This document shows, in pieces, positions 14,692 through 34,932 of a DNA stretch of 34,976 nt. How positions within the stretch are numbered: position 1 is the first letter of the stretch; every line of letters starts with the position of its first letter. The position numbers and the translations under genes were made by a program. The stretch comes from a virus. Under the pieces are notes generated by a model. It was not told the origin of the DNA, searched no databases, and was given only the letters and a program-made list of their open reading frames with translations. The DNA is taken from the IMG/VR virus record IMGVR_UViG_3300030389_003065, positions 1 through 34,976 of that record. One strand, 5' to 3'.

Positions 14692-14701
14692 GTTATTCAC
14701 C

Positions 14702-15969: not shown

Positions 15970-16170
15970 TTAATTTAATTCTCGACCTAATATTCTCATG
16001 GCTAATGAACCTTCTCTTGTTCTTTTATTGTCGTTTTTTTTATCTGTAAGAGTTCTGATTAATGCCCTTGCTTTAGATTTAGAGGACAGGGGTTTCTTAT
16101 TCATCTTCTCTCCTGTTGTTTTATTATAAACATCATAGCCCCGTTTGCCTAATCTAAATTCGTATGTCAT
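15970..16170 (-). CDS. Small basic protein (66 aa)
   Basis: 66 residues, rich in Lys and Arg (RLGKRGYDVYNKTTGEKMNK, then SKSKARALIRTLTDKK). The ATG at 16170 follows AAGGAG and overlaps the previous stop by 4 bases. YDVYNKTTGEK looks like a short beta hairpin; a basic helix comes after it. It may bind DNA or RNA, but no family is recognised. It is the last gene of the small-gene block and lacks the shared MxW peptide. Confidence 0.6.
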   Translation of the reverse strand: MTYEFRLGKRGYDVYNKTTGEKMNKKPLSSKSKARALIRTLTDKKNDNKRTREGSLAMRILGRELN

Positions 16171-16319
16171 TCTTTTCTCTCCTTACAACCGCAGGGCGTA
16201 GTCTTATCTTTACACTTTTTACAAGGTGGTTTTTTACCATATGTTGTATTATACAAAGCCGGAGTAAATGCCGGACTTGTAGTTAATGTAGGTTCTTTTA
16301 TTATATTCCACCAACTCAT
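16167..16319 (-). CDS. MSWWNIIK-tagged mini-protein with Cys cluster (50 aa)
   Basis: 50 residues, ATG at 16319, with 4-base overlaps (ATGA) at both ends. It begins MSWWNIIKEP, the shared peptide. A Thr/Pro/Ala-rich linker follows, then a C-terminal cluster CKKCKDKTTPCGCKERK with four Cys (CxxC and CxC) that could bind zinc. Function unknown. The perfect overlaps on both sides and the tag argue that it is real. Confidence 0.7.
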   Translation of the reverse strand: MSWWNIIKEPTLTTSPAFTPALYNTTYGKKPPCKKCKDKTTPCGCKERKE

Positions 16320-17059
16320 AAATTTAACCCCCTTATATATTTTACTATATTTAGTACATCATCCATACTTTCTTCATCACCAAATCCTATAATATAAGTA
16401 CCGCCTCTATTATTAGAAATTTTTGTATCTAATGTTTTATTAGCAATATTATGATTAGGAAAATTTATATCTCCATATTCAAGGGGGTCTAGTTTTAATA
16501 ACTCTATATAATTATCATTTAAAACTTTTAATATTTTTTCTCTAATACTATGTATTGTTCTAAGTCTATAATCTTTTCTAACATTAATAAAGGCCCTCAT
16601 ATTTTTATATTTATGACTAGGTTTATTATATAATTCTACCCAATCTGATACTACTTTAGGTTTATCATAGCCATAATAATCAATTAATATTGGGATATAT
16701 TTATTTGAATCTGCAAATATATCAATATTCATGTCCTCAAGCCGTATAATATCATTACCATCATCCCTCTCTATAATTTCTCCCCTAATTACTAAATCAA
16801 AATTTATTTGTGTAACATCACTAAAAATACCAGTAACGCCTCCCCACTTGAATCTGTTTGATTCAGGGAAGTAAGTTGCCCTTAATTCATTTAATGTTTT
16901 TAAATTACCTAAATTAACATCAAAATTAGAAACTCTTCTCCCATATATCTCATTTCTTTTTTTTCTATCTTCTGCTATATCTTCAATTTCTTCTTCAGTT
17001 TGAAATTCAACGGGAGTATATGGTCCTTTTATATTTTTTAATATAGTCCACCATATCAC
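16316..17059 (-). CDS. MIWWTILK-tagged protein (247 aa)
   Basis: 247 residues from a GTG at 17059, which overlaps the previous stop (GTGA) and has GGAGG 7 bases upstream. It begins MIWWTILKNI, a form of the shared peptide. The rest mixes helices and strands (ITQINFDLVIRGEII-like stretch near 85-100; later NVRKDYRLRTIHSIREKIL). It has no membrane segment and no motif I recognise. Calls such as nuclease or structural protein cannot be supported. Confidence 0.65.
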   Translation of the reverse strand: MIWWTILKNIKGPYTPVEFQTEEEIEDIAEDRKKRNEIYGRRVSNFDVNLGNLKTLNELRATYFPESNRFKWGGVTGIFSDVTQINFDLVIRGEIIERDDGNDIIRLEDMNIDIFADSNKYIPILIDYYGYDKPKVVSDWVELYNKPSHKYKNMRAFINVRKDYRLRTIHSIREKILKVLNDNYIELLKLDPLEYGDINFPNHNIANKTLDTKISNNRGGTYIIGFGDEESMDDVLNIVKYIRGLNL

Positions 17060-17208
17060 TCTTCTTCCTCCAAAGTTAGTATCTTCATAATTTTTTCTAC
17101 TAATGTAGGTTCATTCATTAGTCTAGAAACTACATAATCTATATCTCTCTCCATTTCCGGAGTTAAATTTTCTCTAACTTTAATCTTTAGTATATTTTCC
17201 CAATTCAT
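17056..17208 (-). CDS. MNWENILK-tagged mini-protein (50 aa)
   Basis: 50 residues from the ATG at 17208, preceded by the near-perfect ribosome binding site AAGGAGG. It overlaps the upstream stop (ATGA) and the downstream GTG start. It begins MNWENILKIK and continues as one or two acidic helices (LTPEMERDIDYVVSRLM, then LVEKIMKILTLEEEE). It is little more than the tag plus a helix. It may be a minimal cargo or an assembly factor (inference). Confidence 0.7.
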   Translation of the reverse strand: MNWENILKIKVRENLTPEMERDIDYVVSRLMNEPTLVEKIMKILTLEEEE

Positions 17209-17330
17209 TTCTTTTTCCTCCTTTTATGGTTTGGTTTGTTAGGTCGTCTTTTTTCTCCCTTTTGACTTGGTTCTCCTTTTTTTCTTTTAATTGGATTTCG
17301 TATTTTATTTTTATTTGGCAATTGAATCAC
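17205..17330 (-). CDS. Very basic mini-protein (41 aa)
   Basis: 41 residues from a GTG at 17330 that overlaps the previous stop (GTGA). It ends with an ATGA overlap into the next gene. About half of the residues are Lys or Arg (IRNPIKRKKGEPSQKGEKRR, then HKRRKKK), like a nucleic-acid-condensing tail. The two exact overlaps support translation. It has no MxW peptide. The same stretch also encodes the ribosome binding site of the next gene, so a non-coding spacer cannot be excluded. Confidence 0.5.
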   Translation of the reverse strand: MIQLPNKNKIRNPIKRKKGEPSQKGEKRRPNKPNHKRRKKK

Positions 17331-17590
17331 GGACTACCCTTTCTTCTTTTGTAAGTTTTACAAGCGGCACAAGTAGGTCTACATCTTCTTTTTCTACCTT
17401 TAGATGCATCTTTTCTACCACAAGGTTTAGGTCCACCTTTATCATTACAGGTTCCACAAGCAATCCAACCTCTTTGTGTTTTACCACCTTTTTCTTTTCC
17501 ACCCCTTCTTGAAAACCACCCATGTAAGCCTTCATCTTTTTCTCTTTTAAAGTTATCTCCCTTTTTACGAAGAATATCTTGCCATGTCAT
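17327..17590 (-). CDS. MTWQDILR-tagged Cys-rich basic protein (87 aa)
   Basis: 87 residues. It begins MTWQDILRKK, then LHGWFSRRGG, then a Cys-rich basic core: GWIACGTCNDKGGPKPCGRK and RCRPTCAACKTYKRR. Six Cys spaced in pairs suggest zinc binding. I recall similar small proteins (WFS...GW...C...CGR...CRPT) in many tailed-virus genomes from water, but the function is unknown and the family name uncertain to me. ATG at 17590 overlaps the stop of the phosphatase gene (ATGA). Another frame (17311-17535) is a shadow. Confidence 0.75.
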   Translation of the reverse strand: MTWQDILRKKGDNFKREKDEGLHGWFSRRGGKEKGGKTQRGWIACGTCNDKGGPKPCGRKDASKGRKRRCRPTCAACKTYKRRKGSP

Positions 17591-18354
17591 TCTAATTCCT
17601 CCTTCAATATTCTAATAACATCTCTAACCATTTCCTTAATACTTTGTAAGTCAATAGGTTTTTCTTCTAACTTTTTTAATAACTCTTCGTAATAAAATAG
17701 TGCTTGTTGAATCATTATAATTAATTCAGATACTTCCATGTCACCCTTTGCATCTTTCCTCCAATCATGTTTTTTAATTTTTAAATAAGCATCTGCTATT
17801 ATTAGACCAACTTTTTTTCCTGCTTTTACATCACTAGGAAAATGATTACCCATTTGTATTCTTGACATACCTATTTTTTCTGCCATGCTATCTAATTCTT
17901 TTTGCTTTTTGGGATATTTATTTCCTAAAACTTTTGCTAAGGCATACGCTTCTGCGGCATGACCACTTGGAAAAGAAGGTGTATCATCTGTATCAGTTAC
18001 TGAATCTATTTTATTAGTTATTTCATAAGGTCTTGGTCTACCATATTTCATTTTAAGTTTAATAACAAATATATCTGCATCTTGTATAAACTTTTTCCAA
18101 TCTGATTCTTTTTCTCCTACAATATCTAACATTAACTTATGATGATTTTTATCATAATCTTTAGTTTCTTTTTCAGTCAATTTAGAGTTTTTCATAATTT
18201 TTATCACTTTTGGTAATTCTTTTTCATTATTAGGATAAGTCATTTTAGGAAACTTTGCATTAAAAGAAGGAGTTTTATTGAGTAGTTTTTTCTTGTTTGT
18301 AGATAAACTATTTACCCACTTAGATTTACTCGCTTTTAAAACTTGTTCCCACAT
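17587..18354 (-). CDS. Soluble PAP2-type phosphatase with N-terminal MWEQVLK peptide
   Basis: 255 residues from the ATG at 18354, 6 bases after AGTG. A GTG three codons upstream is the alternative, and residue numbers here use it. All three motifs of the PAP2/vanadium haloperoxidase family are present: KX6RP in KLKMKYGRPRP (R109-P110 or R111-P112), PSGH at 132-135, and SRx5Hx3D (S167, R168, H174, D178). The family removes phosphate from lipids, polyprenyl-diphosphates or small molecules. Unlike most lipid phosphatases it shows no membrane segments, so a soluble substrate is likely. The first residues MWEQVLKASK match the shared peptide. It sits in the tagged-gene cluster, so it may be carried in the virion. 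Confidence 0.8.
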   Translation of the reverse strand: MWEQVLKASKSKWVNSLSTNKKKLLNKTPSFNAKFPKMTYPNNEKELPKVIKIMKNSKLTEKETKDYDKNHHKLMLDIVGEKESDWKKFIQDADIFVIKLKMKYGRPRPYEITNKIDSVTDTDDTPSFPSGHAAEAYALAKVLGNKYPKKQKELDSMAEKIGMSRIQMGNHFPSDVKAGKKVGLIIADAYLKIKKHDWRKDAKGDMEVSELIIMIQQALFYYEELLKKLEEKPIDLQSIKEMVRDVIRILKEELE

Positions 18355-18359
18355 AGTAA

Positions 18360-18533
18360 TCACTTTTTCTTTTTAGATTTGTTACCCCAATTTTTAGCAC
18401 CAACTTTACGACAACGAACTAAAGCCCCCGATGCATATGCTGAAGGCCATTTTTTATATCTTCTTCTTACTTTGTAATAACAGGCATCTCTTTTTGCTTT
18501 CTTTTTTCTTTTAAGAATATCTTGCCACTTAAT
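18360..18533 (-). CDS. KWQDILK-tagged basic protein with AUU start (57 aa)
   Basis: 57 residues. The frame has no ATG. The GTG at 18542 lies inside the ribosome binding site GAGGTG, so the likely start is the ATT at 18533, exactly 6 bases after GAGGTG, the same spacing as in neighbouring genes. From there the protein reads (M)KWQDILKRKK, the shared peptide. The body, CYYKVRRRYKKWPSAYASG followed by ALVRCRKVGAKNWG, is a small basic Cys-containing domain that I recall as widespread in aquatic tailed viruses and of unknown function. The end overlaps the phosphatase upstream region. Confidence 0.75.
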   Translation of the reverse strand: MKWQDILKRKKKAKRDACYYKVRRRYKKWPSAYASGALVRCRKVGAKNWGNKSKKKK

Positions 18534-18543
18534 AAAAACCACC

Positions 18544-18861
18544 TCACAAATTATTTAATGTTCTATCAACAATTGCCATTACCTTTTCGCCAACCGTGTA
18601 CCAATTTACATCATCTAATGAATAGCCATCTCCTATAAACTTATTCATCCAATCCATATCTGTTTTAACTGCTATTTTTCCATTTCTCCATACTCTAGCA
18701 AAAGATTCTCTTACACTTTTTTCATCAACAGGTAAGCCTAAACGCTTTTGCATAAAGGTCATACTTTCTATACTCGATGGGATAGTTACTTCTAAATTTG
18801 GTAATATTATTTCTAATAAAGCCGTTGTTGGTTCTAATTTTAATATTTTTTTCCAACTCAC
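18544..18861 (-). CDS. MSWKKILK-tagged protein (105 aa)
   Basis: 105 residues from a GTG at 18861 with GGAGG 7 bases upstream and a GTGA overlap with the previous stop. Begins MSWKKILKLE. The rest is a single small soluble domain (ALLEIILPNLEVTIPSSIES, then SVRESFARVWRNGKIAVKTD). No family recognised. The GTG start places the tag at the very N-terminus, as in its neighbours. Confidence 0.7.
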   Translation of the reverse strand: MSWKKILKLEPTTALLEIILPNLEVTIPSSIESMTFMQKRLGLPVDEKSVRESFARVWRNGKIAVKTDMDWMNKFIGDGYSLDDVNWYTVGEKVMAIVDRTLNNL

Positions 18862-19580
18862 TCTAATTCCTCCCTATCTTCTAAACGCTCGCGCAAGATA
18901 CTTACATTTTTTCCTTTTGCTTTAGTATATTTGTGTGTCTCTCTTATTTTAGATTCATTAAAATTTGTAACTGATACAATTTTTCCACGAGTAGGTAACC
19001 AATTGCTCATCTGAATTAGGAATAGACGGAGGGAAGGTAAAACAGGTTTTATATTTTTTGATAACATAATAAAATCATCTATTGTGCATTCATATACAGT
19101 AATCGAAAATAGTTCAGTAAATATTCTAATAGTACCCGTTTTTTCAGGTGTCATCAACAATGAGCGATAATTTACTGGACTATAATTTACATTATAGGTT
19201 ATGCAATTAAATTTCATTAAGTTAGGATAGATAGAGTCAAAGATTCTGACTTGTTTTTTATGTTGTATATATACATCTTTACTATTTAAAAAAGACTTTA
19301 CATTACTTGGAACTTTATAACTAGTTATTATTTTTGCACCTGCTGTTACAAAGTTATTAATAAATGTTGATTCTTTAAAATTATAAAGTGAAATGTTCTT
19401 ATTAAAATCTCTTTTGATAGTAATTCTCCTTGACGCAGGTATTTTTGAACCAAGCCAAATTTCTCTACCACATAGTTTTATAATTTGATTAATAATACCC
19501 CCTCTTTTATAATCCTTTACAAATTTAATAGACCTTTCTACTACATTTTCATCAATTTTAATTATACTAAACCAATCCAT
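18858..19580 (-). CDS. MDWFSIIK-tagged protein (240 aa)
   Basis: 240 residues from the ATG at 19580, one base after the ligase stop, with GGGGG 6 bases upstream. A longer frame from 19613 would run into the ligase gene and lacks a site. Begins MDWFSIIKID. The body is mixed alpha/beta and basic (GREIWLGSKIPASRRITIKR, then ITSYKVPSNVKSFLNS, VRIFDSIYPNLMKFNCI). It ends with an Arg/Glu-rich helix (VSILRERLEDREELE). No catalytic motif recognised. Confidence 0.65.
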   Translation of the reverse strand: MDWFSIIKIDENVVERSIKFVKDYKRGGIINQIIKLCGREIWLGSKIPASRRITIKRDFNKNISLYNFKESTFINNFVTAGAKIITSYKVPSNVKSFLNSKDVYIQHKKQVRIFDSIYPNLMKFNCITYNVNYSPVNYRSLLMTPEKTGTIRIFTELFSITVYECTIDDFIMLSKNIKPVLPSLRLFLIQMSNWLPTRGKIVSVTNFNESKIRETHKYTKAKGKNVSILRERLEDREELE

Positions 19581-19581
19581 A

Positions 19582-21690
19582 CTAGGCCCCCAATTTAGCA
19601 TACTTATCTTCATTAATATTTATTAACCCTTCATCGCTAGATTTAGGTGCAGGTTTGGTTTCATATCCTGTCCATGCCAACCACATTTTTTTATCATCTA
19701 CCGGCAAAACTCTAAAGTGCATTTTACCTTTAGTTTCTGGACCGTCTAAAAGATATTCATGATAACCATGTCGGTTAGCACCAAAAGATAAATTACCCCT
19801 TTCTAATAATTTTTCTTTATCCGGATTGTTTGTAACGATAGCAGGGTATTTACCTGCTTCACCTAATAAGTCATAAATTTCTTCCTCATCTTTAACATCA
19901 ATATCCCACGACATTTCATTGTCTCTATATTTAATTACAAAACTAAAACTATCATCTTCCCCCATCCAAATTTCAAACTTACCTTTTGGTTTTTCTTCTT
20001 TATTAATTATCTTATCATCAATAGAAAACTTTTTACTTCTTTTTTCATACATTATACCGTAGGCTTCTCCACCTTCCCTTAATCTATTTAGTACACCCTG
20101 TTCTATATTACTACCAAATAATCTATTTGTTAAACCAGCATCATGCTCTTTAATCTTTTTAGATAATGTTTCTACATTAGCGGGTCCTTCTTTTAATATT
20201 TGTTGAATAAAGGTAAAAAAGCGACCATTATCTTTACCATAAGCAACCTTTAGTTCTTTTTTCCAAATATCTAAATCGGCTTCCGCATTTTTAGACATTA
20301 AATTATTTTCTGAAAAACCGTGAAAAGTAAAACCGTCTAAATTTATTTCTCCCTTTAATATAGCCGTACCATGTATTCCATCTGTAATAGTATAAGATTT
20401 AGTAAGTGCTTCTATTTTATAATCTGCTAAACTCTTTTTACCATCCTTTGTTAAAAATTCAAGTGTAACGAGTTTATCCGGCTGAACAGTTTCAGGTTTT
20501 TCTACTAGATTGGCATTATATAAACTAAATCCCTTCTTTGTATTGCCTTGCACTTCATCAACCTTTACACGAATAATATCTCCTTCGGATGCAGATATTT
20601 TTGTATTTGTTGTTTTTCCGACATTCATATAAAAATCATTTTCAAGTTTTTGTGCTTTTGGTATATCTTCTTCAACCGGACCCACCCCAACAATATAATT
20701 TACTGTTCCATTTTTATTTTCCTTAACTTCTAAAACTATTACATCTAGGTCTACAAATTTTTTCCACTTAATCCATTTAGGGTTTTTCTTTTTACCAATT
20801 ACATAAGAAGATTTAGAATCTTTAATTACAACACCTTCACTTGTAGGATTTTTCATTATTTCTTTTGCGTATTCTTCTATTTCTTCTAAAGAGTCGGCAT
20901 CTCTAGTATTCTTTTTATTTGGGAATACTAAATATTCGTCAGATAGTGATGAAAAATTCTGCATCATTATCTGCATTCTTTCTTCTAATTTTTTAGTTAC
21001 AATAGAATCATCTTCAAAATGTAGTATATCAAAAACTTGAATTTTTATTTCTGCACCATCAGAATCAGAATCTTTTTTATTTACATGTGCTAAAGTATCT
21101 GCTCTAACTAAAGGTTCGTCATCTTTATATAAAATAGCCTCCCCGTCTAAAATACAGTTTGGAAACTCTTTCTTTTCTAAAATTTTTACTGCCTTACCCA
21201 TTTTATCTGTAATGTCTTTCCCATTAAAAGAATATATAGTAACTTTATTTTTAAATTTATGAAGTTGAACTCTTAGTCCATCATATTTTTCTTGCACTAT
21301 ATATTCTCCGGTAAATCCATTAATCTCTTTCATATCATCTATCTCAAATATGCGATACATTGGTTTATTAGGCACAATAAACTTATTTTGCTTATCTTCT
21401 TTAATTATAGGTTTGGATATTTTACCCGTTATAATTGAATATAATATTTTTGCATTTTTATTCTTAGGGTCTAAAGTTTTGTCAGAATGTAAAACACTTG
21501 GGTCTATATCAGGAAATTTAGCGGCCATCATAGGGTCCTCTAAAATTTTTTGTAATTGCCTAATTAAACCCTTCCAATCTTCTTCATATTTAGAATTATC
21601 AATTGCCTTTAAATATCCAAGACCCATCATGTTACGAAATGAGTCTACATTTTTATTTATACTATCAAAAGGTATTTCAAAGGGGTTAAT
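19582..21690 (-). CDS. ATP-dependent DNA ligase with extra C-terminal domains
   Basis: Joins DNA nicks using ATP. Numbering from the first ATG (21630): motif I EKYDGLR with nucleotide-binding K115, motif III LDGEA (E154), motif IV SEGVVIK (255-260), motif V KWIKWK (275-280), then an OB fold with DIIRVKVDEVQGN. Beyond about 390 come a beta segment (HGTAILKGEINLDGFTFHG), a winged-helix-like part (VETLSKKIKEHDAGLTNRLF), and an end domain (HGYHEYLLDG, MHFRVLPVDDKKMWLAWTGY) I cannot name. The ATG at 21630 lacks a ribosome binding site. An in-frame ATT at 21690, 5 bases after GGGGGTG, adds 20 residues and is the likelier start, giving 702. Lying between portal and protease genes, it may act on packaged or entering DNA. 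Confidence 0.85.
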   Translation of the reverse strand: MNPFEIPFDSINKNVDSFRNMMGLGYLKAIDNSKYEEDWKGLIRQLQKILEDPMMAAKFPDIDPSVLHSDKTLDPKNKNAKILYSIITGKISKPIIKEDKQNKFIVPNKPMYRIFEIDDMKEINGFTGEYIVQEKYDGLRVQLHKFKNKVTIYSFNGKDITDKMGKAVKILEKKEFPNCILDGEAILYKDDEPLVRADTLAHVNKKDSDSDGAEIKIQVFDILHFEDDSIVTKKLEERMQIMMQNFSSLSDEYLVFPNKKNTRDADSLEEIEEYAKEIMKNPTSEGVVIKDSKSSYVIGKKKNPKWIKWKKFVDLDVIVLEVKENKNGTVNYIVGVGPVEEDIPKAQKLENDFYMNVGKTTNTKISASEGDIIRVKVDEVQGNTKKGFSLYNANLVEKPETVQPDKLVTLEFLTKDGKKSLADYKIEALTKSYTITDGIHGTAILKGEINLDGFTFHGFSENNLMSKNAEADLDIWKKELKVAYGKDNGRFFTFIQQILKEGPANVETLSKKIKEHDAGLTNRLFGSNIEQGVLNRLREGGEAYGIMYEKRSKKFSIDDKIINKEEKPKGKFEIWMGEDDSFSFVIKYRDNEMSWDIDVKDEEEIYDLLGEAGKYPAIVTNNPDKEKLLERGNLSFGANRHGYHEYLLDGPETKGKMHFRVLPVDDKKMWLAWTGYETKPAPKSSDEGLININEDKYAKLGA

Positions 21691-21701
21691 AAAATCACCC
21701 C

Positions 21702-22121: not shown

Positions 22122-22123
22122 TT

Positions 22124-22357
22124 TTATTCCCCCGTTAATCCTTTTACTAATTCATCTAATTGTGACCAATCCATCTTTGATATTACATTAGAATCCGGCA
22201 TTTGTGATGTAGGTGTTCTATGGGGTCTTTGACCTTCCACCTTCACTAATCCCGACTTCATTAAAATATTATCTTGATTATAAACTGTATTCTCTAATTC
22301 TTGTATTCTCTCTACCAGCATTTTTAGCAAAGTAGTTAATTCTTCATATTCAGTCAT
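22124..22357 (-). CDS. Small coiled-coil protein with C-terminal MDW segment (77 aa)
   Basis: 77 residues, ATG at 22357 with GGAGG upstream and a 4-base overlap with the previous gene. It starts with a leucine-heptad helix (LTTLLKMLVERIQELENTVY), continues with a linker, and ends MDWSQLDELVKGLTGE. That end aligns without gaps with the MSWNEAHQFIREN end of the protease-scaffold protein. Function unknown; probably a helical oligomer. Confidence 0.6.
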   Translation of the reverse strand: MTEYEELTTLLKMLVERIQELENTVYNQDNILMKSGLVKVEGQRPHRTPTSQMPDSNVISKMDWSQLDELVKGLTGE

Positions 22358-23991
22358 TCTTCTTCATCCTCCGGATATACTCTTTCTCTTATTTTTTCGT
22401 ATAAATTTTCATACCTTTTTCTAAGTGATGCCAAAACCTTCACAAGTTTTAAATTTTCTTCATCTAAATTTTCTAACTCGCCTGTATTACCTTCTACCTC
22501 GTCTAGTATATTTATAAGTTTTCCTAATTTTAAATATTCTTCTCCAAAATATTCGGTTGGGTCTGCATCCTGTAAATATGTTTTTACCTTTCTTTTATCT
22601 TTTTCACTTAAATTATCAATAGACTTTAGCATAGTTTTATCTAAAGCAATTTTATTATAACCTATTTTAGAAATAATCGCTCTTAGTAAAAAATAACCCA
22701 CTGTCTTACCGCCAGCCGGTTGGTCTAAAACATTTATAACCGCATCTCTAATAACAGTATTTTCTGTTTGGGGTCTATGTGCTACAATTTTTCCTAAAGC
22801 ATCTAGTTTCATTCTAGTAACATTACTAATATCATTTAATATATCTTCATTAGTCTCTTTAATTAATCTTCGATTAGTTTCTTCTCCTGAAATCGAAGTA
22901 ATATTTTTAGTAACTGCACCTTTTAATTCTGATAAATCTTTATAAATACTATCATAATAATCTTCAATAGTAACCCCTTGTAAATATTGGTCTTGAGTTC
23001 CCTCTAATCTTTTTCTAATATATTTTACAAAATCTCTATTTACTTCTTCGGGTGTACCGTATTCTGTAAATTTTTCAAAACCTAAAATATCTAATCTTTG
23101 TTTAATGTCTACTTGTGAAATTTTAGCCAAACTTATTTCTGCTACTTTATTGTCAATTTGAATTGGTTTATTTAAAGGTTCATCTTCATCATCTCTAATT
23201 CTTAAAAATAAATTTGATGCTTCGCCCCTACCCCTAATTTGAACCGCCCTATAATTTATAGGTCTTTTTCTACCTTTACTAGAAGGTCTAGCATTTTTAA
23301 TCGTAGTAACATCATTAAGTCTTATGAATAATTTTCTTGGACCCGATTCTAAATCCTCTTCTTTTTTATATTTATCAGAAATTTTTGCTATTTCTTCTAA
23401 ACTTTCGTTTTTAAATATATCTTTTAACTTATTCATTTCCTGATTAGTCACATAGCCCCACACTTCTTCTACATATTTAGGGTCAATTTCTTTATCACTA
23501 TTTAGCATAAGAAGTCTAACAAATCTAGTTTTATCATCAGGAGTAACTTTTCTATCTCCATAGGATATTAAATTACTTCTGTTAAGTCTATCATATTCTT
23601 CTTTTGTATAAATTATTTTTTTAGGTCGTAGTAATTTATTTATATATGCTCGAAATTCAGTAAGAGGACCTTCTAAAACTCTTTGAAAGTTAGGTCGTAA
23701 TCTATCAATTTCGGGTAATTCACCCTCGGCTCGTCTTTTATTTGTTTCTTGCCATTCTTTGTATTTTTTTCTAACAGTAAATGCTATATTTTTGTCACTT
23801 AAATTTGTATTTGCTACCCCTTTAACTTCTTGTACTATTAGTTTATCTAACTCTTGTTCAGTTTTACGGTTTTCTTTTAAATTATCATATTTCATTTTAG
23901 CCTTACTATAAACTTCTCTATAAGATTCTAAATCATGTATAAACCTTCCTTGTCTATTTTCATACCCAAAAGGAAAGTTATCTTCAGTCAT
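22354..23991 (-). CDS. Large unrecognised helical protein downstream of portal (545 aa)
   Basis: 545 residues from the ATG at 23991, 7 bases after GAGG. A TTG six bases upstream touches the site and is less likely. It is highly charged and mostly helical throughout (YSKAKMKYDNLKENRKTEQE, then IRKRLEGTQDQYLQG). A short beta-like central part (RPINYRAVQIRGRGEASNLF) and an acidic end (RERVYPEDEEE) are also seen. No catalytic or membrane motif. In many tailed viruses a minor head protein follows the portal, and this gene has that position. No sequence match to known minor head proteins is apparent to me. Confidence 0.6.
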   Translation of the reverse strand: MTEDNFPFGYENRQGRFIHDLESYREVYSKAKMKYDNLKENRKTEQELDKLIVQEVKGVANTNLSDKNIAFTVRKKYKEWQETNKRRAEGELPEIDRLRPNFQRVLEGPLTEFRAYINKLLRPKKIIYTKEEYDRLNRSNLISYGDRKVTPDDKTRFVRLLMLNSDKEIDPKYVEEVWGYVTNQEMNKLKDIFKNESLEEIAKISDKYKKEEDLESGPRKLFIRLNDVTTIKNARPSSKGRKRPINYRAVQIRGRGEASNLFLRIRDDEDEPLNKPIQIDNKVAEISLAKISQVDIKQRLDILGFEKFTEYGTPEEVNRDFVKYIRKRLEGTQDQYLQGVTIEDYYDSIYKDLSELKGAVTKNITSISGEETNRRLIKETNEDILNDISNVTRMKLDALGKIVAHRPQTENTVIRDAVINVLDQPAGGKTVGYFLLRAIISKIGYNKIALDKTMLKSIDNLSEKDKRKVKTYLQDADPTEYFGEEYLKLGKLINILDEVEGNTGELENLDEENLKLVKVLASLRKRYENLYEKIRERVYPEDEEE

Positions 23992-23993
23992 AT

Positions 23994-24209
23994 TCAAACC
24001 TCACGCCACTTATTATTACCTTTTTTTCCACCTGTAATTACACCGGGAATATTTACATCCTTTTCAAAGTTAGCCGGAGGAAGTTCAGGAATAGGTGGGC
24101 AAAGATTAACAGTTTCTGCTTCTTTCTTTACCGGCCTATCTGCCTTTTTCTCAGCGTTTTCTAAAGCCTTTCGTGCTTGTTCTAATTTTCTTCTTACTAT
24201 ATCACTCAT
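23994..24209 (-). CDS. Small helical, Pro-rich protein (71 aa)
   Basis: 71 residues, ATG at 24209 overlapping the portal stop by one base. An N-terminal basic/alanine helix (VRRKLEQARKALENAEKKAD) is followed by a Pro-rich segment (CPPIPELPPANFEKD) and a Gly/Lys tail. No family recognised. Tight coupling to the portal gene suggests a portal-associated or early assembly role (inference). Confidence 0.6.
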   Translation of the reverse strand: MSDIVRRKLEQARKALENAEKKADRPVKKEAETVNLCPPIPELPPANFEKDVNIPGVITGGKKGNNKWREV

Positions 24210-25822: not shown

Positions 25823-25823
25823 A

Positions 25824-27191: not shown

Positions 27192-28596
27192 ATATTCCAC
27201 CTCCTATATTTGGTGTCGCTGAAACTAAAGCGTTCCCCCATAGCCCTTCTTCATCTACATCAATAAAGGCATCGTTAAAAGACTTTGTGGCGTGATTTGC
27301 TAATGCTAGTGCAATAACACAATCATCATGTGCGCCTAAACCTTCAATTTTTCCTGCCGGACTAATACCAAATGCTTCAAGTTCTTGAATAATTGCGTTA
27401 CTTACACCCTTAGCCGCATCATCAGCATATGGAAATATAATCTTATCGTTTTCTAAATTCATCTGCAAGTTAAGAATTATTTCTTCTTTCTTTTTTCTAC
27501 TCATTGTAAAATCCCTCACAGGAAAATCTGAAATATCACGCAACTCCATACTAAATGATTTAGCAAAGGTGTTGGTTTCAATCATAACTACTTCAGGTTT
27601 AAATCTTTCGCATAAATCACTAATTCTTAATATGTGATTTCTAAAATCTACATTTTTTTCTCTGACCATATGAACTACTTTTTTATTCATATCTTCGTCT
27701 ACCTCTATAACAATCATAACGGTGTAGTCTCCATCTGCTGATAAAGAAGGGTCGTAACCAATATAATATTTCATATTCTCCTTGCCCCTCCATAACAATT
27801 TTTCTGTTCTATCTTTAGATTTATCAATATGTTCTTTTGAAAATAACATTGTGTTAGATGAAATTGGTATGCATAAATATTCACGAGTAAATTTAGAAGA
27901 ACCTATTTCTTTTCTTCTTCTCTCTAAAGAATCTATATCCCACCTATTAGGCCAAAGTGCCTCTCCATGTTGATTAATTGCTGGATAACGATTAACACTA
28001 TATTGACTATTTTCTTCTAATTCAGCAAATATATCTGTATATGTAAAGGGAGTTCCTACCATTCTTAAAGAAGCAGAATGGTGAAGTGTAGGTATCATAT
28101 CACCCCAAAACCAATCAGTAACTCTTTGTATAGCGGCCATTGTAAATTCTTTCATAGGGTCATCAATAATAATTTCTTGAGGGTGTAATCCACGAATTTG
28201 TGAACCAACAGAACGCTCAAGTATTTCATTACCATTTGTTAATCTCATAGAACCTACCGCCCATCCCGACTTAGGTTTATATTTTCTTAGTGCTGGAATA
28301 TTTGTGAACATGCGGTCTATATCTTTCATGTGAACCATTGTCTGTTTTTGGTTAGAAGATATGTATAACATTTGATATGGAGGCTCTTGAAATATTAATT
28401 GATATACTGCCCATGCGTGAAAGAATACAGATTTACCGTGGTCTCTAGAACATATAATTACAGTTCTTTGTGTTGAATTTACAAGGTCTAACCATTGTTG
28501 ATGAAAGTCTGCTAAGTCATATCCTAAAACATTTTCAAAAAAATATGGAAAATTACCTTTAGACATTTTCATGTCCATTTCAGTTATAAGGTCCAT
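27175..28596 (-). CDS. terL: Terminase large subunit
   Basis: 473 residues. DNA packaging motor and nuclease. ATPase motifs are Walker A-like SRDHGKS (50-56) and Walker B EIIIDDP with D145 and D146; a coupling motif is visible in RMVGTPF (178-184). Nuclease residues of the RNase H-like domain are D282 (YIGYDPSLSADGD), E340 (VVMIETNTF) and D424/D425 (GAHDDCVIALAL). The ATG at 28596 overlaps the previous stop by one base. No intein or intron is seen. The next gene starts inside its end. Confidence 0.95.
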   Translation of the reverse strand: MDLITEMDMKMSKGNFPYFFENVLGYDLADFHQQWLDLVNSTQRTVIICSRDHGKSVFFHAWAVYQLIFQEPPYQMLYISSNQKQTMVHMKDIDRMFTNIPALRKYKPKSGWAVGSMRLTNGNEILERSVGSQIRGLHPQEIIIDDPMKEFTMAAIQRVTDWFWGDMIPTLHHSASLRMVGTPFTYTDIFAELEENSQYSVNRYPAINQHGEALWPNRWDIDSLERRRKEIGSSKFTREYLCIPISSNTMLFSKEHIDKSKDRTEKLLWRGKENMKYYIGYDPSLSADGDYTVMIVIEVDEDMNKKVVHMVREKNVDFRNHILRISDLCERFKPEVVMIETNTFAKSFSMELRDISDFPVRDFTMSRKKKEEIILNLQMNLENDKIIFPYADDAAKGVSNAIIQELEAFGISPAGKIEGLGAHDDCVIALALANHATKSFNDAFIDVDEEGLWGNALVSATPNIGGGIYGVNF

Positions 28597-31103
28597 TACC
28601 TAAACATCCCCTTAACTTTATATATTATTTCTTCGCTAACTCCAAAAGATTTTGATATTGTATTAAATGAACTAGTAGACTCTACTATACCTTCTATGTC
28701 TTTAGCAAATATATCAATTTTATCTTCTTTTTTAATCATGTTAGAAATAAATTCAATATCATCTATATCTTCTAATAACAAATGACCTATGTATATTTGT
28801 TCACCTTTTGCTATTTTTAAAGTATCTAGAGCAGAAATATAAGCCTTAGATATAGACATATTTTCTATTTCATCAGGTTGTTGTAGTCGTCTATTACTTC
28901 TTAACTCATTTTTTAAACGATTTAATTCACGATGGAATTTTTCTTTCTTAGCGTAGTCCATGAAATCTTTATCATCTAAAATTTCATATATTGCATCTAA
29001 CCCCCTTTGGGGTGTAACATTACTGTATTTAGATAAGGGTTCTCTTTTAAATTCTATTTCTTCTATTTCTTCGTCTGTCAAATTATTTCTATCAGCGATT
29101 TCGTATAACTCTCTACCTAATAGGTCTTGATATATTTTAGTACTTTTTTGTTTTGCTTTTCTACCCGTACCTTCACTAAAACTAAATTGTATATTTACAA
29201 GAGAATCTAAAGCATCCTCAAATATTTTAATAACATCTGCACTTATACCTAGTCTACTACCTTTTTTAATTTCTCTCGACCACTTTTTGATATTTACTAA
29301 ATCTTGCTCATCAATATCTACACTACCAAATCTTCGTAGGCGAGACTTTACTCTAGATATGGGCTTACCTTTTTTCTTATCAATAATAGATTTAAAAGAT
29401 TGATACTCGGATGATTTAGTAAAATTAGGAGAATCTTTATCGTAAAAATAAGTAGGGTCCATACTTGTAAAATAATAATCTTCAATTGCTTCCAAAACTT
29501 GTATATAGTCATCTTCCATTTTTGCTTCCATGCCCGGAATTGAGGGTAAATCTCCACCCACAATTGCTGCCCCTGTTTCTCTTTTACCATATTGAGTCCA
29601 TTCATTATAAATATAGTTAGTTTGAGTTCTTAATTTTGTTAAAGTGGCGAGTGACTTAAAAAAGTTTTTAGCATCTTTATTTATTTGTTCAACAAACTTA
29701 CCATAATCATTAAATGTCTTTACATTTTTTTCAGCCACTAAAACTATTTGCTCTACATTTCGAGTTTCTTCAGTCATAGAACCTGTTTGTTCGTCATAAT
29801 TTATAGTGGTAAGACTATCAGAAAGTCTATTTTCTTCTATATTTAAATTATAATATTCATATACAAATGTTATGTTCCCATAAATTCTATCTACAACATT
29901 AACACTATCTAAATCGTCAAGAATACTAAATGCATATTGGTCTAATGTTACAATATCATCTTGAATTTCATTTACAAAATTATCAATATCGTCAATAAGA
30001 TTATTTAAAGCCTCACCAAATTCCATATTTGATATTTCTGCCATAATCTTTTCTTTTACCTTTTCCATAGATTCGGCACTCATTAGTAAATCTTGCTTGC
30101 CATAAATTGAAAAAGCAGTTAATGGGTCTATCGTTTTTTGCACTTGTTGTATTTCTGTTTCTAATTCTAGTGCATCGTCTGTGGCGGCTTCTAAAGTGGT
30201 ATCTTCTATTTCTATTTGTGGTGCATCTAATTCTCTACCTTCAGCATCCCTAGTTCTTTCTGTTGGTTTTAAATCTTTAACCCTTTTACCAAATCTCCTT
30301 TGATATTCTTCCATATCCTCGGTGCTAAGTTTAGCAAATTCTGTTACAAATACATTTGCTAATTCAAGAGCAGACACATCATCTTCTGCTTGTGATTTTA
30401 TTCCCGGCCTTGATAATACAGTTATGTAATTAGGTAAGCGAGTATTAGTAAATGCCTCTTTTGTTTTATTTGTAATATCTTCTAAACTTTCTGATGTAAA
30501 TAAATTTGAACCAAGAACTATATTATTTAAAATTTCCAATAAACCTGTCCATCTTTCTCTATAAACTTCTGACCAATATTTATATATTTCTTTTCTATTC
30601 TCCGGTGATTCAATATCGTATTTTCTAATAAAACTTCTAATAGAATTTATGGCTACATTACTTGGAGTTTTAGGTTGCTCGGTATATTCAGGGCCTAATA
30701 TTTCATCTACTATAACTTCCATTCCTCTAATGAAATTTTTATCATTAATATATTTTCTACCAAATTCATACATATCTACAAAGTCTGAATCGGGGTCTTT
30801 ATCAAAATTTTCTGAATAACTTAAACCAGTTTTAGCGGCAGGTTGTAAGGTAGTTCCAAATAAAATATTTGCTTCATCTAATTTATTATTGTAGTTAGCA
30901 CGAGTTATATTTGGGTTTGTTTGAGAAAATATAGTATTTTCATTTAGAATAATAGAACCTTCTAGGCTTAATAAAACTAATATTTTTAAACCATCCTCTC
31001 TAATCTGCCCCTCAAATTTATTTATTACCCTTCTTGGAGATTGGTTATTTATAGCCTTTAGTAATTCATCTTGTTTTTCTGCTTCTAAATTTTCAAAACT
31101 CAT
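28596..31103 (-). CDS. Large unrecognised protein next to terminase (835 aa)
   Basis: 835 residues, ATG at 31103 with GAGG upstream and a 4-base overlap with the previous gene. It is acidic and mostly helical, with many short Asp/Glu-rich segments (IEDTTLEAATDDALELETE, NLIDDIDNFVNEIQDDI). A basic part is near 600-640 (KKKGKPISRVKSRLRRFG). It has no membrane segment and no recognised domain. It begins MSFENLEAEKQ, which lacks the Trp of the shared peptide. Composition resembles that of the 886-, 545- and 542-residue proteins. Possible roles are an internal virion or minor head protein; unproven. Confidence 0.65.
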   Translation of the reverse strand: MSFENLEAEKQDELLKAINNQSPRRVINKFEGQIREDGLKILVLLSLEGSIILNENTIFSQTNPNITRANYNNKLDEANILFGTTLQPAAKTGLSYSENFDKDPDSDFVDMYEFGRKYINDKNFIRGMEVIVDEILGPEYTEQPKTPSNVAINSIRSFIRKYDIESPENRKEIYKYWSEVYRERWTGLLEILNNIVLGSNLFTSESLEDITNKTKEAFTNTRLPNYITVLSRPGIKSQAEDDVSALELANVFVTEFAKLSTEDMEEYQRRFGKRVKDLKPTERTRDAEGRELDAPQIEIEDTTLEAATDDALELETEIQQVQKTIDPLTAFSIYGKQDLLMSAESMEKVKEKIMAEISNMEFGEALNNLIDDIDNFVNEIQDDIVTLDQYAFSILDDLDSVNVVDRIYGNITFVYEYYNLNIEENRLSDSLTTINYDEQTGSMTEETRNVEQIVLVAEKNVKTFNDYGKFVEQINKDAKNFFKSLATLTKLRTQTNYIYNEWTQYGKRETGAAIVGGDLPSIPGMEAKMEDDYIQVLEAIEDYYFTSMDPTYFYDKDSPNFTKSSEYQSFKSIIDKKKGKPISRVKSRLRRFGSVDIDEQDLVNIKKWSREIKKGSRLGISADVIKIFEDALDSLVNIQFSFSEGTGRKAKQKSTKIYQDLLGRELYEIADRNNLTDEEIEEIEFKREPLSKYSNVTPQRGLDAIYEILDDKDFMDYAKKEKFHRELNRLKNELRSNRRLQQPDEIENMSISKAYISALDTLKIAKGEQIYIGHLLLEDIDDIEFISNMIKKEDKIDIFAKDIEGIVESTSSFNTISKSFGVSEEIIYKVKGMFR

Positions 31104-32728
31104 TCGCCTTCCTCCCTATAATCCATCCACTTATTTTCTATTAACCATTCATCTACATGCTTGCGGCCCTTTCTAGGTATTCTATTAGATTTGGACCTTA
31201 AATCAATCGGGTCTAACATACCAAAGCATCTGTTTAGTTCTGATGCAACTGCGGTTTGAATTTCTATTACTGCATCGTCTAACTTATTGTCAATTTCTTT
31301 AGACTTAGAAATAAACTTCTTTATATCTTCTTCTGTAAGACTTCTAGCCCTACCCCTTAAATTTAAATTATCATCAAAATTTAATAGTTCATCTGCGTCT
31401 GATAATAAATCAGTTAATTTAGTGGCCCCATCTATAAGATTTAGTTTTTTCATTAATACTACAATATTTTTAATTCCGTTAGCCGCACCTTCTATTGTAT
31501 CTTCAGTAATAGACTCAAAAGATTGACCTATTTGATAAATAGGAGTTTCTTCTAATAAAGCATTGTATAATATTGTAAGACCACTAAGACTTGTAATTGA
31601 ACTTATTTCATCTCTTAAATTTTTATTAAAAAGTCTGATATTAAATTCTGATAAACTACCCCCTACCTGCCTACTTCTAAGGTATCTTTCAAAACCTCTT
31701 TGAGCATCGGACCCATCAGTTCTAATTAATTTTAAACCCTCCCTCATGTTTCTAGTTTTATATTCGTCTTGTGTTTCTTCGGGATTTTTATCTACCCATT
31801 CTTTTTGATTAGCATAATCTTGCATATATCCCTGTTCCATAGCAAGTCCAACTCCCCTTTTAGTTTTTGAACCCGGCTTAAATTGTGTCATTTGTGTAAC
31901 AGTTTGAATCAAATCATTTGATTTATTTGCCTTGAGAACGGGAACAAGCATTCTGTAAGGTCTAGTAGTTCCCAATTCTAAATTATTAAGTAGATAAGAA
32001 TCACCCGCAATATTTTTACATATGGCTAAAACATCACGAATATTCTGTTCGCTACTTCTTTTCATATGTCTAATTAGTCTAGCCTCATTATAAAATTCAT
32101 AGCCTATAAAATCAAGTTCCGGAGTTTCGTCTAATAAAAATGGTTTTAATAAATTTCCCGATTCTGAAATTAACTCATCAAATGTGGTTTTATATTGATT
32201 AAATCTTTGAGTAAATTGTTTTTTATCTTGATTAATATTACTAATTAGAATATCTAAATCTACTTCGAGAGACTTTTTTCTACCCAAGTTACTGTGAACA
32301 TACCTTACAGTATTTAAAAATGCCAACGGATTCCCGTTCAAAAATTGGTCATATGTATTTTGTGCATTTTCAGCCGCCCAAGATTTTAACCCACCATTAA
32401 TAGGAATTACATCCCCTATTTTTTTATCAGTATCATAAAGTAAGTTATTTAAATTATCATGTATTCCTCTATTTTCTTCAAGTAAGGTATCTAAAAATTC
32501 TATCAATTCTTCAATATATTCTTCAGCCTTTTCCTCATTACGGTTCCCCCCACCCCTACGAAATAATATTTCGTAAAGATTACCAGTTTTATCTTTTAGT
32601 TTTTTAACAATGCCTATTAATTGTCCATGCGTAGAAGGGGTTAATTCTGCATCTTCTAAGTCACCTAATTTAACTCCCCTTCTTGTAACAGTGCTACGAA
32701 GAGCATCTTGCCAATTAGTAACTCTCAT
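31100..32728 (-). CDS. NWQDALR-tagged large protein (542 aa)
   Basis: 542 residues, ATG at 32728 after GAGGG. Starts MRVTNWQDALRSTV, a form of the shared peptide displaced by three residues. The rest is mainly helical (YIEELIEFLDTLLEENRGIH, LNLRGRARSLTEEDIKKF) with some Gly/Arg-rich loops (FRRGGGNRNEE). No known domain. It is the largest tagged protein. If the tag directs proteins into the prohead, it would be a major internal protein (inference). Confidence 0.65.
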   Translation of the reverse strand: MRVTNWQDALRSTVTRRGVKLGDLEDAELTPSTHGQLIGIVKKLKDKTGNLYEILFRRGGGNRNEEKAEEYIEELIEFLDTLLEENRGIHDNLNNLLYDTDKKIGDVIPINGGLKSWAAENAQNTYDQFLNGNPLAFLNTVRYVHSNLGRKKSLEVDLDILISNINQDKKQFTQRFNQYKTTFDELISESGNLLKPFLLDETPELDFIGYEFYNEARLIRHMKRSSEQNIRDVLAICKNIAGDSYLLNNLELGTTRPYRMLVPVLKANKSNDLIQTVTQMTQFKPGSKTKRGVGLAMEQGYMQDYANQKEWVDKNPEETQDEYKTRNMREGLKLIRTDGSDAQRGFERYLRSRQVGGSLSEFNIRLFNKNLRDEISSITSLSGLTILYNALLEETPIYQIGQSFESITEDTIEGAANGIKNIVVLMKKLNLIDGATKLTDLLSDADELLNFDDNLNLRGRARSLTEEDIKKFISKSKEIDNKLDDAVIEIQTAVASELNRCFGMLDPIDLRSKSNRIPRKGRKHVDEWLIENKWMDYREEGE

Positions 32729-32738
32729 TTATATTCCC

Positions 32739-32939
32739 TCACAATAGGGAATTAATTAATACGGCCACCGCTACAAGAGAAGGTAGGGCAACTAGGATTG
32801 CCTTCTTATATTTCTTAATTAGTGCAAGAACTTTCTTTTCCTGTGCTTCACTAATGACTCCTAAATCCTCTAGTACTTCGGTAGCATCTTCTAGTACATC
32901 TGCTACATCTTCAATTTTTTCTTCTGTTTTCTTTGCCAT
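32739..32939 (-). CDS. Small single-helix membrane protein (66 aa)
   Basis: 66 residues, ATG at 32939 with GGTG 7 bases before it. The N-terminal 45 residues are acidic then basic and helical (DVADVLEDATEVLEDLG, then KKVLALIKKYKKA). The last 20 (ILVALPSLVAVAVLINSLL) form one membrane segment, so it is tail-anchored. It could be a membrane-active virion protein or a lysis factor; neither is established. Confidence 0.65.
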   Translation of the reverse strand: MAKKTEEKIEDVADVLEDATEVLEDLGVISEAQEKKVLALIKKYKKAILVALPSLVAVAVLINSLL

Positions 32940-32958
32940 TTTAATTCACCTTATTTTA

Positions 32959-33273
32959 TTAAGCAGGAACTATTTCAAAATCAGCCACTTTTGTAGAGGG
33001 GTCGCCTCTTTGTTGTGCCATTTGTGCAATAGTTCCTTTAATCGGAATATCTCCATCATATTCTGTTCCTTGCATAGACATATTTTTAGCAATAACAAAA
33101 TCTTTCAAATGATAAAATGCTTCAGCCTTACCATCAGAAGTAATAGACCCACCCCTACCTCCTTGTTGTAGGCCGACTGTTTTTTCTCCAAATACTTCAG
33201 GTGTATAACCTGCTAATGGCGGTGTAGTTCTTACTGTATATCCCTGTTGTTTTAATATATCTTTCCATCCCAT
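32959..33273 (-). CDS. MGWKDILK-tagged protein (104 aa)
   Basis: 104 residues from the ATG at 33273, 6 bases after GGTG. A GTG nine bases upstream is part of that site and would wrongly add three residues. Begins MGWKDILKQQ. The body is a small soluble domain (AGYTPEVFGEKTVGLQQGG, then KAEAFYHLKDFVIAKN, ending STKVADFEIVPA) with no known family. Confidence 0.7.
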   Translation of the reverse strand: MGWKDILKQQGYTVRTTPPLAGYTPEVFGEKTVGLQQGGRGGSITSDGKAEAFYHLKDFVIAKNMSMQGTEYDGDIPIKGTIAQMAQQRGDPSTKVADFEIVPA

Positions 33274-33285
33274 TTTATTCACCTT

Positions 33286-33672
33286 TTACTTATTTCTAAT
33301 GTATAAATCATCCCCTATTGCTGTACCTGTTAATTGGGTAGTGTAGCCTTCTTTATCATACAATTCTTTTATTGTATTAAGAATAAGACTACTATCGCCA
33401 CCTAATCTTTTTACATCATCAGTGCCAATACTGTACTTACCATACTTGATTCCCTGCGCCTGTAATTCATCAAACTTACTGTCACGAGTATATGCCAATC
33501 CAACACTAAGTAATATGCGAGAATTTGCCCCTAAGCCCTGAGTATATTTTGTAAATGCTGGTTCAATCTGTTCTTTTTCAAAGGCTATAATTTTTTGTTT
33601 AAAATCCTCATCTCTACTCGTAGCCACATTCATTGGCATTGGCATCTTTCTTAATGTATTTTTCCATGACAT
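33286..33672 (-). CDS. MSWKNTLR-tagged protein (128 aa)
   Basis: 128 residues from the ATG at 33672, 6 bases after GGTG and one base after the previous stop. The upstream in-frame GTG (33681) lies inside the ribosome binding site. Begins MSWKNTLRKM, followed by a Met/Pro linker, and then an alpha/beta domain (KIIAFEKEQIEPAFTKYTQ, then YSIGTDDVKRLGGDSSLILN, ending TAIGDDLYIRNK). No known family. Confidence 0.7.
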   Translation of the reverse strand: MSWKNTLRKMPMPMNVATSRDEDFKQKIIAFEKEQIEPAFTKYTQGLGANSRILLSVGLAYTRDSKFDELQAQGIKYGKYSIGTDDVKRLGGDSSLILNTIKELYDKEGYTTQLTGTAIGDDLYIRNK

Positions 33673-33673
33673 A

Positions 33674-33811
33674 TTATTCACCCTTTATATTTTTAATATA
33701 TTCTCTAATTCTTTTTGCTTGACTTGTATGAAGTTTAACAGCCTTATCTAATTCATTTGCTATTTTTTCTAATTCGGATATATCCTGTTTTAAAATAGAT
33801 TCCCATTTCAT
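33674..33811 (-). CDS. MKWESILK-tagged mini-protein (45 aa)
   Basis: 45 residues from the ATG at 33811, overlapping the upstream stop (ATGA). Begins MKWESILKQD and continues as a single amphipathic helix (ISELEKIANELDKAVKLHTS, then AKRIREYIKNIKGE). It is little more than the shared peptide plus a helix, like the 50-residue gene at 17056-17208. The GGTG for the next gene lies in its last codons. Confidence 0.7.
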   Translation of the reverse strand: MKWESILKQDISELEKIANELDKAVKLHTSQAKRIREYIKNIKGE

Positions 33812-34215
33812 TTGCCATCCTCCCTAACAGGCTTTAATGTTGCTAACTTTGGCTCACCCTTATTAGGGTTTCGTTCCATATCAACTCTATGGTCATTATC
33901 TTGTTGCTCTAATTTCATTCTATGTTGATGCTCTTTGGTATCTTCTAAACGCAAATGTTCTAATTGTATTGGCATATCTGCAACTTCATTTGCCTGTTCT
34001 GCTTCCCAAGTTCTTAATAGAGTATTAAAAGCAGGGGCGGCTACACCTCCAATAATTGCTATTAGAGCAATAAATCCATCAAGATTTGTAAGTACAACAT
34101 CGGGCTTTGTGATACCTGTATATACTACTGCCGCACAAGCCAAAAGCCATAGATAAATCGCTGGCAATACTGTTTTTGATACTAGTTTATCGTTGAAACT
34201 CTTTTTTCCATTCAT
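33808..34215 (-). CDS. Two-helix membrane protein, holin-like (135 aa)
   Basis: 135 residues, ATG at 34215 with GGTG 7 bases upstream. Two membrane segments are at about 16-36 (LPAIYLWLLACAAVVYTGI) and 45-64 (LDGFIALIAIIGGVAAPAF), followed by a long charged cytoplasmic tail (LEHLRLEDTKEHQHRMKLEQ). Short hairpin membrane proteins of this kind are often holins or membrane-active virion proteins. No lysin gene is visible nearby, so the role remains open. Confidence 0.65.
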   Translation of the reverse strand: MNGKKSFNDKLVSKTVLPAIYLWLLACAAVVYTGITKPDVVLTNLDGFIALIAIIGGVAAPAFNTLLRTWEAEQANEVADMPIQLEHLRLEDTKEHQHRMKLEQQDNDHRVDMERNPNKGEPKLATLKPVREDGK

Positions 34216-34319
34216 TTTTTTTCACCTGTAAGTAAATCCTTTCCTGCTTTTTTTTCTGCTTTGTCTAGTTCTTTTGATTTTACATCAAACCATGAATCCA
34301 ATAATGCACATCTAGTCAT
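34212..34319 (-). CDS. Mini-protein with degenerate tag-like segment (35 aa)
   Basis: 35 residues from the ATG at 34319, which lies inside the end of the previous gene (8-base overlap), with GAGGG upstream. Ends with an ATGA overlap into the two-helix protein. Contains LLDSWFDVKSKELDK, in which SWFDVKSK loosely resembles the shared peptide. Overlap geometry supports it. Size makes it uncertain. Confidence 0.45.
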   Translation of the reverse strand: MTRCALLDSWFDVKSKELDKAEKKAGKDLLTGEKK

Positions 34320-34620
34320 CCTTCTTTTCCCTCAATTCCTTCAAGTCCTTTTCATCTATTTTATCTTTTGGTTCAGCCAATTCAGCAATCTTCTTTTGTT
34401 TCGCTGAAAGTTTTTCTATATCAGGTTCATGTGTATAAAGGTCGCCATGTTTATGTTCAAATAACTTACCTCTTTCCTTCATATTAGAAACAGTTTCTTT
34501 AATCTTCTTTTTACTAGCAATATCCTTTAAATTTTTCATACCTAATGCACCGCCCTCGGACTCTACCTCATCAAGTATTTCTTCTTCAATATCTTTTTTT
34601 AATAAATCAAACCAACTCAT
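34312..34620 (-). CDS. MSWFDLLK-tagged helical protein (102 aa)
   Basis: 102 residues, ATG at 34620. Begins MSWFDLLKKD. The middle resembles a small winged-helix: LKDIASKKKIKETVSNMKER, then LFEHKHGDLYTHEPDIEKL. The C-terminus is a charged helix ending in Lys/Asp. A DNA- or protein-binding role is possible. No family assigned. Confidence 0.7.
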   Translation of the reverse strand: MSWFDLLKKDIEEEILDEVESEGGALGMKNLKDIASKKKIKETVSNMKERGKLFEHKHGDLYTHEPDIEKLSAKQKKIAELAEPKDKIDEKDLKELREKKDD

Positions 34621-34629
34621 GCTAATTCC

Positions 34630-34932
34630 TCATACATCTCTAAAACTATTAATTATTTTAACATAGGCATCTCTTACGCCATTTCTTCTTGTAAATAGGG
34701 TCTGTAAGTTAAGTAGTTCGTTTTTACTCTTAATATTATCGGTTTCTTTTCCACTATCTATATCTTCTTTGTTTCTGGCTATAATTTTATCATATTCTTG
34801 TTGGAATTTTATCATATTTTGTTTTAATTCTGGAAAACTATTATTAACAAAATAAATTAAATTTTCAAGTCTTTCAGAAAGAGTGTTACCCATAGGCATA
34901 AAATCTGCTTTTAATATATTTTTCCAACTCAT
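34630..34932 (-). CDS. MSWKNILK-tagged helical protein (100 aa)
   Basis: 100 residues from the ATG at 34932, 8 bases after GGAG. A longer frame (start at 34971) would overlap the preceding gene's end and lacks a site. Begins MSWKNILKAD, then two to three helices (LSERLENLIYFVNNSFPELK, NMIKFQQEYDKIIARN, KNELLNLQTLFTRR). No known family. Confidence 0.7.
   Translation of the reverse strand: MSWKNILKADFMPMGNTLSERLENLIYFVNNSFPELKQNMIKFQQEYDKIIARNKEDIDSGKETDNIKSKNELLNLQTLFTRRNGVRDAYVKIINSFRDV

Follow-up and report, generated by a model that had tools for sequence, protein, structure and literature searches.

A short N-terminal peptide on unrelated late proteins of a marine archaeal virus as a probable prohead-loading address

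The window analyzed here, a stretch of 34,976 nucleotides (bases 1-34,976 of the 48,952-base virus record IMGVR_UViG_3300030389_003065), encodes a series of small proteins that begin with variants of one short peptide, here called the tag. In its strict form, M-x-W-x-x-[ILVMF][ILVMF][KR] read from the start codon, the tag opens 11 genes, most with a G-rich Shine-Dalgarno-like stretch 7-10 nucleotides 5' of the start; all lie on the minus strand, their starts at the higher coordinate. From the right-hand end, these encode proteins of 100 amino acids (aa) (34630-34932; MSWKNILKADFMPMG), 102 aa (34312-34620; MSWFDLLKKDIEE, with tagged homologs in two other genomes), 45 aa (33674-33811; MKWESILKQD) and 104 aa (32959-33273; MGWKDILKQQ), followed after a long interval by proteins of 240 aa (18858-19580; MDWFSIIKID) and 105 aa (18544-18861; (M)SWKKILKLE from a GTG start, with a homolog elsewhere tagged MWNNILRKED), a Cys-rich basic protein of 87 aa (17327-17590; MTWQDILRKK), proteins of 50 aa (17056-17208; MNWENILKIK) and 247 aa (16316-17059; (M)IWWTILKNI, a member of a paralogous group of ~225 aa), a Cys-rich protein of 50 aa (16167-16319; MSWWNIIKEP) and, between the capsid/neck-side and tail genes, a protein of 227 aa (8047-8730; MSWKEILKMM). 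Four further minus-strand genes carry variants: 33286-33672 (MSWKNTLRKMPMPMN; MSWKNTLR, with the strict tag in two homologs); 31100-32728, encoding 542 aa, a weaker match (MRVTNWQDALRS; MRVTNWQDALR); 18360-18542, a basic protein of 60 aa in which the tag lies near the start, position 18533 falling inside the open reading frame (...FIKWQDILKRK; ...FIKWQDILKRKKK), and whose homologs begin MWEDILKKK and MSWEDILKR; and 17587-18354, a PAP2-family phosphatase (MWEQVLKASK, the variant being MWEQVLKAS; Pfam PF01569, E 1.6e-14) with tagged homologs. Just beyond the window, at contig 34,934-35,056 (L002 ~935-1057), the gene starting at 34,620 has its first 23 codons repeated beside a run of N, in a frame that begins MSWFDLLKKDIEEEILDEVESEG; this is a scaffolding gap whose end is duplicated, probably an assembly artefact.

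An earlier note on this DNA had described a shared N-terminal peptide on about fifteen window proteins with unrelated bodies. The 11 strict tags and four close variants bear this out for the window; as a total the figure is too low, because the window cuts the contig, and contig 34,000-48,952 contributes ~15 more tagged genes. The bodies are indeed unrelated for the most part, but a few small paralogous groups exist, such as four proteins of ~225 aa on this contig. Inspection of the starts of the terminase, portal, protease, capsid and tail proteins in the window found no tag, in agreement with what had been said of the terminase, portal, capsid and tail genes. Over the whole contig the motif stands exactly at residue 3 in 24 of 69 genes against 0.010 expected (binomial p ~2e-74), the background being 50 occurrences of W..hh[KR] (h, hydrophobic) in 340,217 residues with the first 14 residues of each protein excluded.

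The contig matches the Magrovirales, tailed viruses of the Poseidoniales, which are abundant archaea of the ocean; it is itself a 49-kb fragment. Members of this order have genomes of ~90-100 kb with ~31% G+C, replication and virion genes in two clusters that oppose each other, a family B polymerase, and head genes related to those of Druskaviridae (PMC10768690). The contig has a G+C content of 31.7%, the marine contigs related to it reach 96 kb, those of 88-96 kb have two opposed gene clusters, a family B polymerase is present in a relative, and the closest named relatives are the haloarchaeal Druskaviridae.

A degenerate 24-base form of the tag was found in 29 of 31 related records, nearly always on a single strand, and the reversed pattern had no match in the same 31. 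In 13 genomes, Trp occupies residue 3 in 14.6% of 1,661 genes, compared with ~1-2% at later positions, and there are 217 tagged proteins, ~9 to 28 per genome. All are encoded on the strand of the terminase, portal and capsid (217 of 991 late-strand genes versus 0 of 670 on the replication strand; Fisher 5e-54). The logo reads W3 (by definition), any residue, a [DN]-rich position, I (78%), L (77%) and K (98%), and conservation ends sharply after K8; across 118 tagged representatives, the only conserved residues are M, W and K. The background rates and the empty opposite strand rule out chance or start-codon selection as the source of the tag, which is a real, very strong, order-specific protein tag. 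It is scarcely credible that the conserved start is instead a feature of late-gene translation or mRNA, even if a position at the start codon, after Shine-Dalgarno-like sites, is where such a feature would be sought: 164 tags comprise 155 distinct 24-base sequences in which I, L and K are written with synonymous codons, so that it is not the DNA that is conserved, and this codon diversity rules out a translation signal. Moreover, untagged late genes are equally common in the same operons, and internal and shifted tags exist.

Some of these displaced forms merit description. A 149-aa protein (L002:11266-11715, minus strand), with relatives in G010, G012 and G013, contains the tag-like ISWKDILKGKR near residue 45; another family has LKWQE[IV]LK ~70 residues into the protein, and in a third (fam3) a small tagged gene is fused onto the C-terminus of its neighbor. 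The tag may thus also be functional internally, or may mark internal starts. In family f56, late genes adjoining the terminase in G009, G010, G016 and G018, the sequence KAW[DE]I[IL]K[GN]R lies at or near the C-terminus with one residue fewer between the Trp and the hydrophobic pair than in the tag; it is possibly a C-terminal form of it.

The tag is also tied to this virus order. The strong consensus MSW[KE][DN]ILK occurred 33 times when 84,980 prokaryote genomes (257 Gb) were scanned for it, for the most part in frames that are very short and never in a record titled Poseidoniales; a motif equally common on cellular proteins, which the earlier note had held would count against its proposal, is therefore not what is seen. 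At least 120 stretches of the viral collection match, and of 97 inspected among the matches listed, 89 have the motif at a start-like position. When 50 records among the matches listed were retrieved by the tag alone, 37 carried a magrovirus protease and four more a portal, the remaining multi-tag records had other magrovirus genes, and the rest had one tag match each. Contigs with two or more tags are thus magroviruses among the matches listed, and the tag follows the head gene set, a link that the earlier note had proposed to check. A second tag-bearing virus lineage was considered and rejected, the protease-less contigs being magrovirus fragments or single chance matches. We found no description of such a tag in archaeal viruses in the literature searched.

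What follows the tag is varied. Tagged bodies include PAP2, GNAT, a DUF6782/SprT-like metallopeptidase, a SUKH-like protein and Cys-rich basic proteins, and few of the 118 representatives could be named with Pfam and PHROGs. The tagged protein at contig 36,127 has a predicted ADP-ribosyltransferase (ART) fold (model pLDDT 79.7), and comparison of this model with known structures (Foldseek, VIA-align) returned ART superfamily matches, the best being KptA/Tpt1 (Z 9.9), so that by its predicted fold the protein is a member of that superfamily; a search for its relatives gave two contigs only. The tagged proteins could in principle all be diverged paralogs of one ancestor, the N-terminus being merely the best-conserved part and having no targeting role, and paralog sets do exist, namely seven tandem genes alike over ~35 N-terminal residues in one relative and the four of ~225 aa here. 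We regard this as very unlikely given the unrelated folds (PAP2, ART, GNAT, metallopeptidase-like), the abrupt stop of conservation, and the distribution of the 217 proteins, after removal of the first 14 residues, into 139 clusters of which 101 are singletons. The ART domain itself comes directly after the tag in two viruses, and in a third it forms the C-terminal domain of a tagged protein that contains GNAT. Tagged genes are also the most genome-specific class (51%, versus 29% and 22%), as expected of arms-race cargo. The tandem set, at L134:3832-9600, shares MxWxxILKNIQISSQRTxSxxYVxPDE and then diverges beyond recognition, apparently a case of cargo multiplying in place.

Where tagged genes lie bears on what the tag might do. 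In the block from upstream of the terminase to the capsid, 113 of 360 genes are tagged. It is conceivable, if unlikely, that the tag docks late proteins somewhere other than the prohead, with the membrane, the S-layer or a virus factory among the candidate viral or host structures: a helix with a W/I/L face and flanking Lys is also plausible as a membrane- or partner-binding helix, and co-expression with late genes would place a tag of that kind on the same strand. Such docking elsewhere fits poorly with the absence of the tag from all 83 tail-module genes, with the grouping of tagged genes beside packaging and head genes (in this window, between portal and protease), and with the selective conservation of hydrophobic-hydrophobic-Lys in head proteins, to which we now turn.

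The head genes of the window, all on the minus strand, comprise the large terminase (27175-28596; phrog_38, E 8.7e-54) and the portal protein (24209-25822; phrog_18178, E 7e-65), both untagged; a post-portal protein (22354-23997), untagged here and belonging to a family that is tagged in 3 of 13 genomes; a 77-aa core-like protein (22124-22357) with an invariant ILMKSG and the C-terminal sequence KMDWSQLDELV; an S78 prohead protease fused to a scaffold-like C-terminus (14702-15898; Pfam PF04586), which ends in a Trp-containing helix (NMSWNEAHQFIREN); and an SU10-type major capsid protein (13486-14736; Pfam PF17236) with a candidate cleavage motif, QLLK|A, in its N-arm. By profile comparison the core-like protein is related to the C-terminus of the protease, whose C-terminal motif is kept in 88 of 91 homologs. 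Conserved hydrophobic-hydrophobic-Lys triplets number nine in head families and one elsewhere (p 3e-5), and in the same comparison no other triplet of two hydrophobic residues and a third was significantly enriched in head families. The capsid Lys of QLLK|A is invariant in 86 of 86 sequences, lies in a Gly/Ser-rich linker of variable length and is followed by A, S, G or Q. In HK97, cleavage of the capsid protein by the S78 protease occurs after a Lys. The conservation of this triplet in head proteins, with the invariance of the capsid Lys, therefore leads us to propose, as a suggestion from sequence, that [IL]-[LM]-K marks the point after which the prohead protease cuts. Alignment also reveals a conserved FVILK ahead of the protease domain, which need not be a cut site because it is modeled, at low confidence, as a beta strand, and which may be structural. 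In some post-portal proteins the Trp and the [IL]LK are both kept with their spacing changed, consistent with separate docking and processing parts.

Two other features of this cluster were observed. The portal protein has a four-Cys zinc-ribbon-like segment (C78, C81, C92, C95) that is invariant in aligned relatives. In 13 of 13 genomes the head cluster includes an ATP-dependent DNA ligase (in the window 19582-21630, minus strand), placed between the genes for the post-portal protein and the prohead protease; in most of these genomes the replication strand encodes another ligase, and the head-cluster site is unexpected for a ligase.

The best-supported reading, to which we assign a probability of roughly 0.73, is that in magroviruses M-x-W-x-x-[IL]-L-K acts as a modular signal for targeting to the prohead, by which cargo is packaged, cut and delivered. 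In a short helix, W3, I6 and L7 would lie along a single face, through which late proteins would dock on the prohead, at its inner core or shell, before DNA is packaged; the viral S78 protease, which would cut capsid, core and cargo alike after [IL]-[LM]-K, would then probably free the cargo inside the head. The 9 to 28 cargo proteins of each virus would exit together with the genome and take effect in the archaeon infected next. The earlier note had made a similar proposal of a modular prohead-loading tag like that of T4, and it is partly supported: modularity and confinement to the virion-morphogenesis strand are observed, as are the association with the head gene set, the near-absence from cells and relatives, and the fast-changing, enzyme-containing cargo, but docking, cleavage, presence in the particle and delivery to the cell are steps that we infer. 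Several points weigh on the other side. Magroviruses are uncultured (PMC10768690). Strand by itself is no proof of a head location, because the late strand also makes tail proteins, and some tagged genes, though few, are found on the downstream side of the tail module. Residues after K8 are diverse in the tags and small after the capsid Lys, and there is the beta strand predicted for the protease FVILK. Finally, the protease-scaffold and the core-like protein end in tag-like helices, MSWxEI and MDWxxI, which is suggestive of a common docking site; yet when 13,659 columns of 54 families were ranked on the W..I core, these C-termini came third and sixth, and ranked above them are two replication-strand families. 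The match, once considered decisive, lost most of its weight in this unbiased ranking.

It is tempting to go further and to imagine a Trp-helix address used throughout head assembly, at the C-termini of scaffold-protease and core and at the N-termini of cargo, with one protease cutting capsid, core and cargo after [IL]-L-K, and with the docking site on the scaffold serving as an open loading port for any late gene that gains eight codons. We offer this broader scheme tentatively, and think it somewhat more likely to fail than to hold.

By published description, magroviruses belong to the most abundant viruses of the sea. Should the tag prove to be a head-loading address, simple text searching would read out the injected protein arsenal of an entire uncultured virus order, more than 100 mostly unknown families at 9-28 proteins per genome, and the tag itself would offer a handle of eight residues with which to package proteins into particles. 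It would also extend the T4 capsid-targeting principle to archaeal viruses, in a seemingly independent invention on a much larger scale.

Among known systems, the closest in layout is the capsid-targeting sequence (CTS) of T4 IPI-III and Alt. In IPIII the first ten residues suffice for packaging, residues 4 and 7 being needed for targeting and 8 and 10 for processing (PMC9026906), and the tag similarly is a short N-terminal peptide on otherwise unrelated, fast-evolving proteins, with an aromatic/hydrophobic pair three apart (W3/I6) followed by putative processing residues (L7-K8). Both viruses have a prohead protease and core proteins encoded between portal and capsid genes, and the ART-fold cargo has a counterpart in Alt, an injected ADP-ribosyltransferase whose N-terminal propeptide, present on entry into the T4 core, can be removed (PMC9026906). 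However, the likeness is one of layout only: there is no sequence homology (IPI begins MKTFKEFTS and Alt MELITELFDE, in contrast to the Trp-centered tag), the tag ends in Lys whereas T4 cuts after Glu and the tag lacks its [LI]-x-E site, the T4 genome has no match to the tag pattern, and magroviruses are archaeal viruses of another order with 9-28 cargo genes each. Phage P1 DarB likewise bears a head-loading signal for injected proteins at its N-terminus, but this signal is longer than nine residues and no consensus among Dar N-termini is reported (PMC9024508). In the giant phages SPN3US and phiKZ the prohead protease removes N-terminal propeptides from ejection proteins, although these are mostly >100 residues and cut at A/S-x-E rather than being one short common tag (PMC5694885). 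The Druskaviridae HVTV-1 and HCTV-1 have homologous portal, protease and capsid proteins (27-32% identity), yet their genomes contain no match to the tag pattern and no small tagged genes. By analogy, the tag is best explained as working like the T4 CTS without being a member of that group by sequence.

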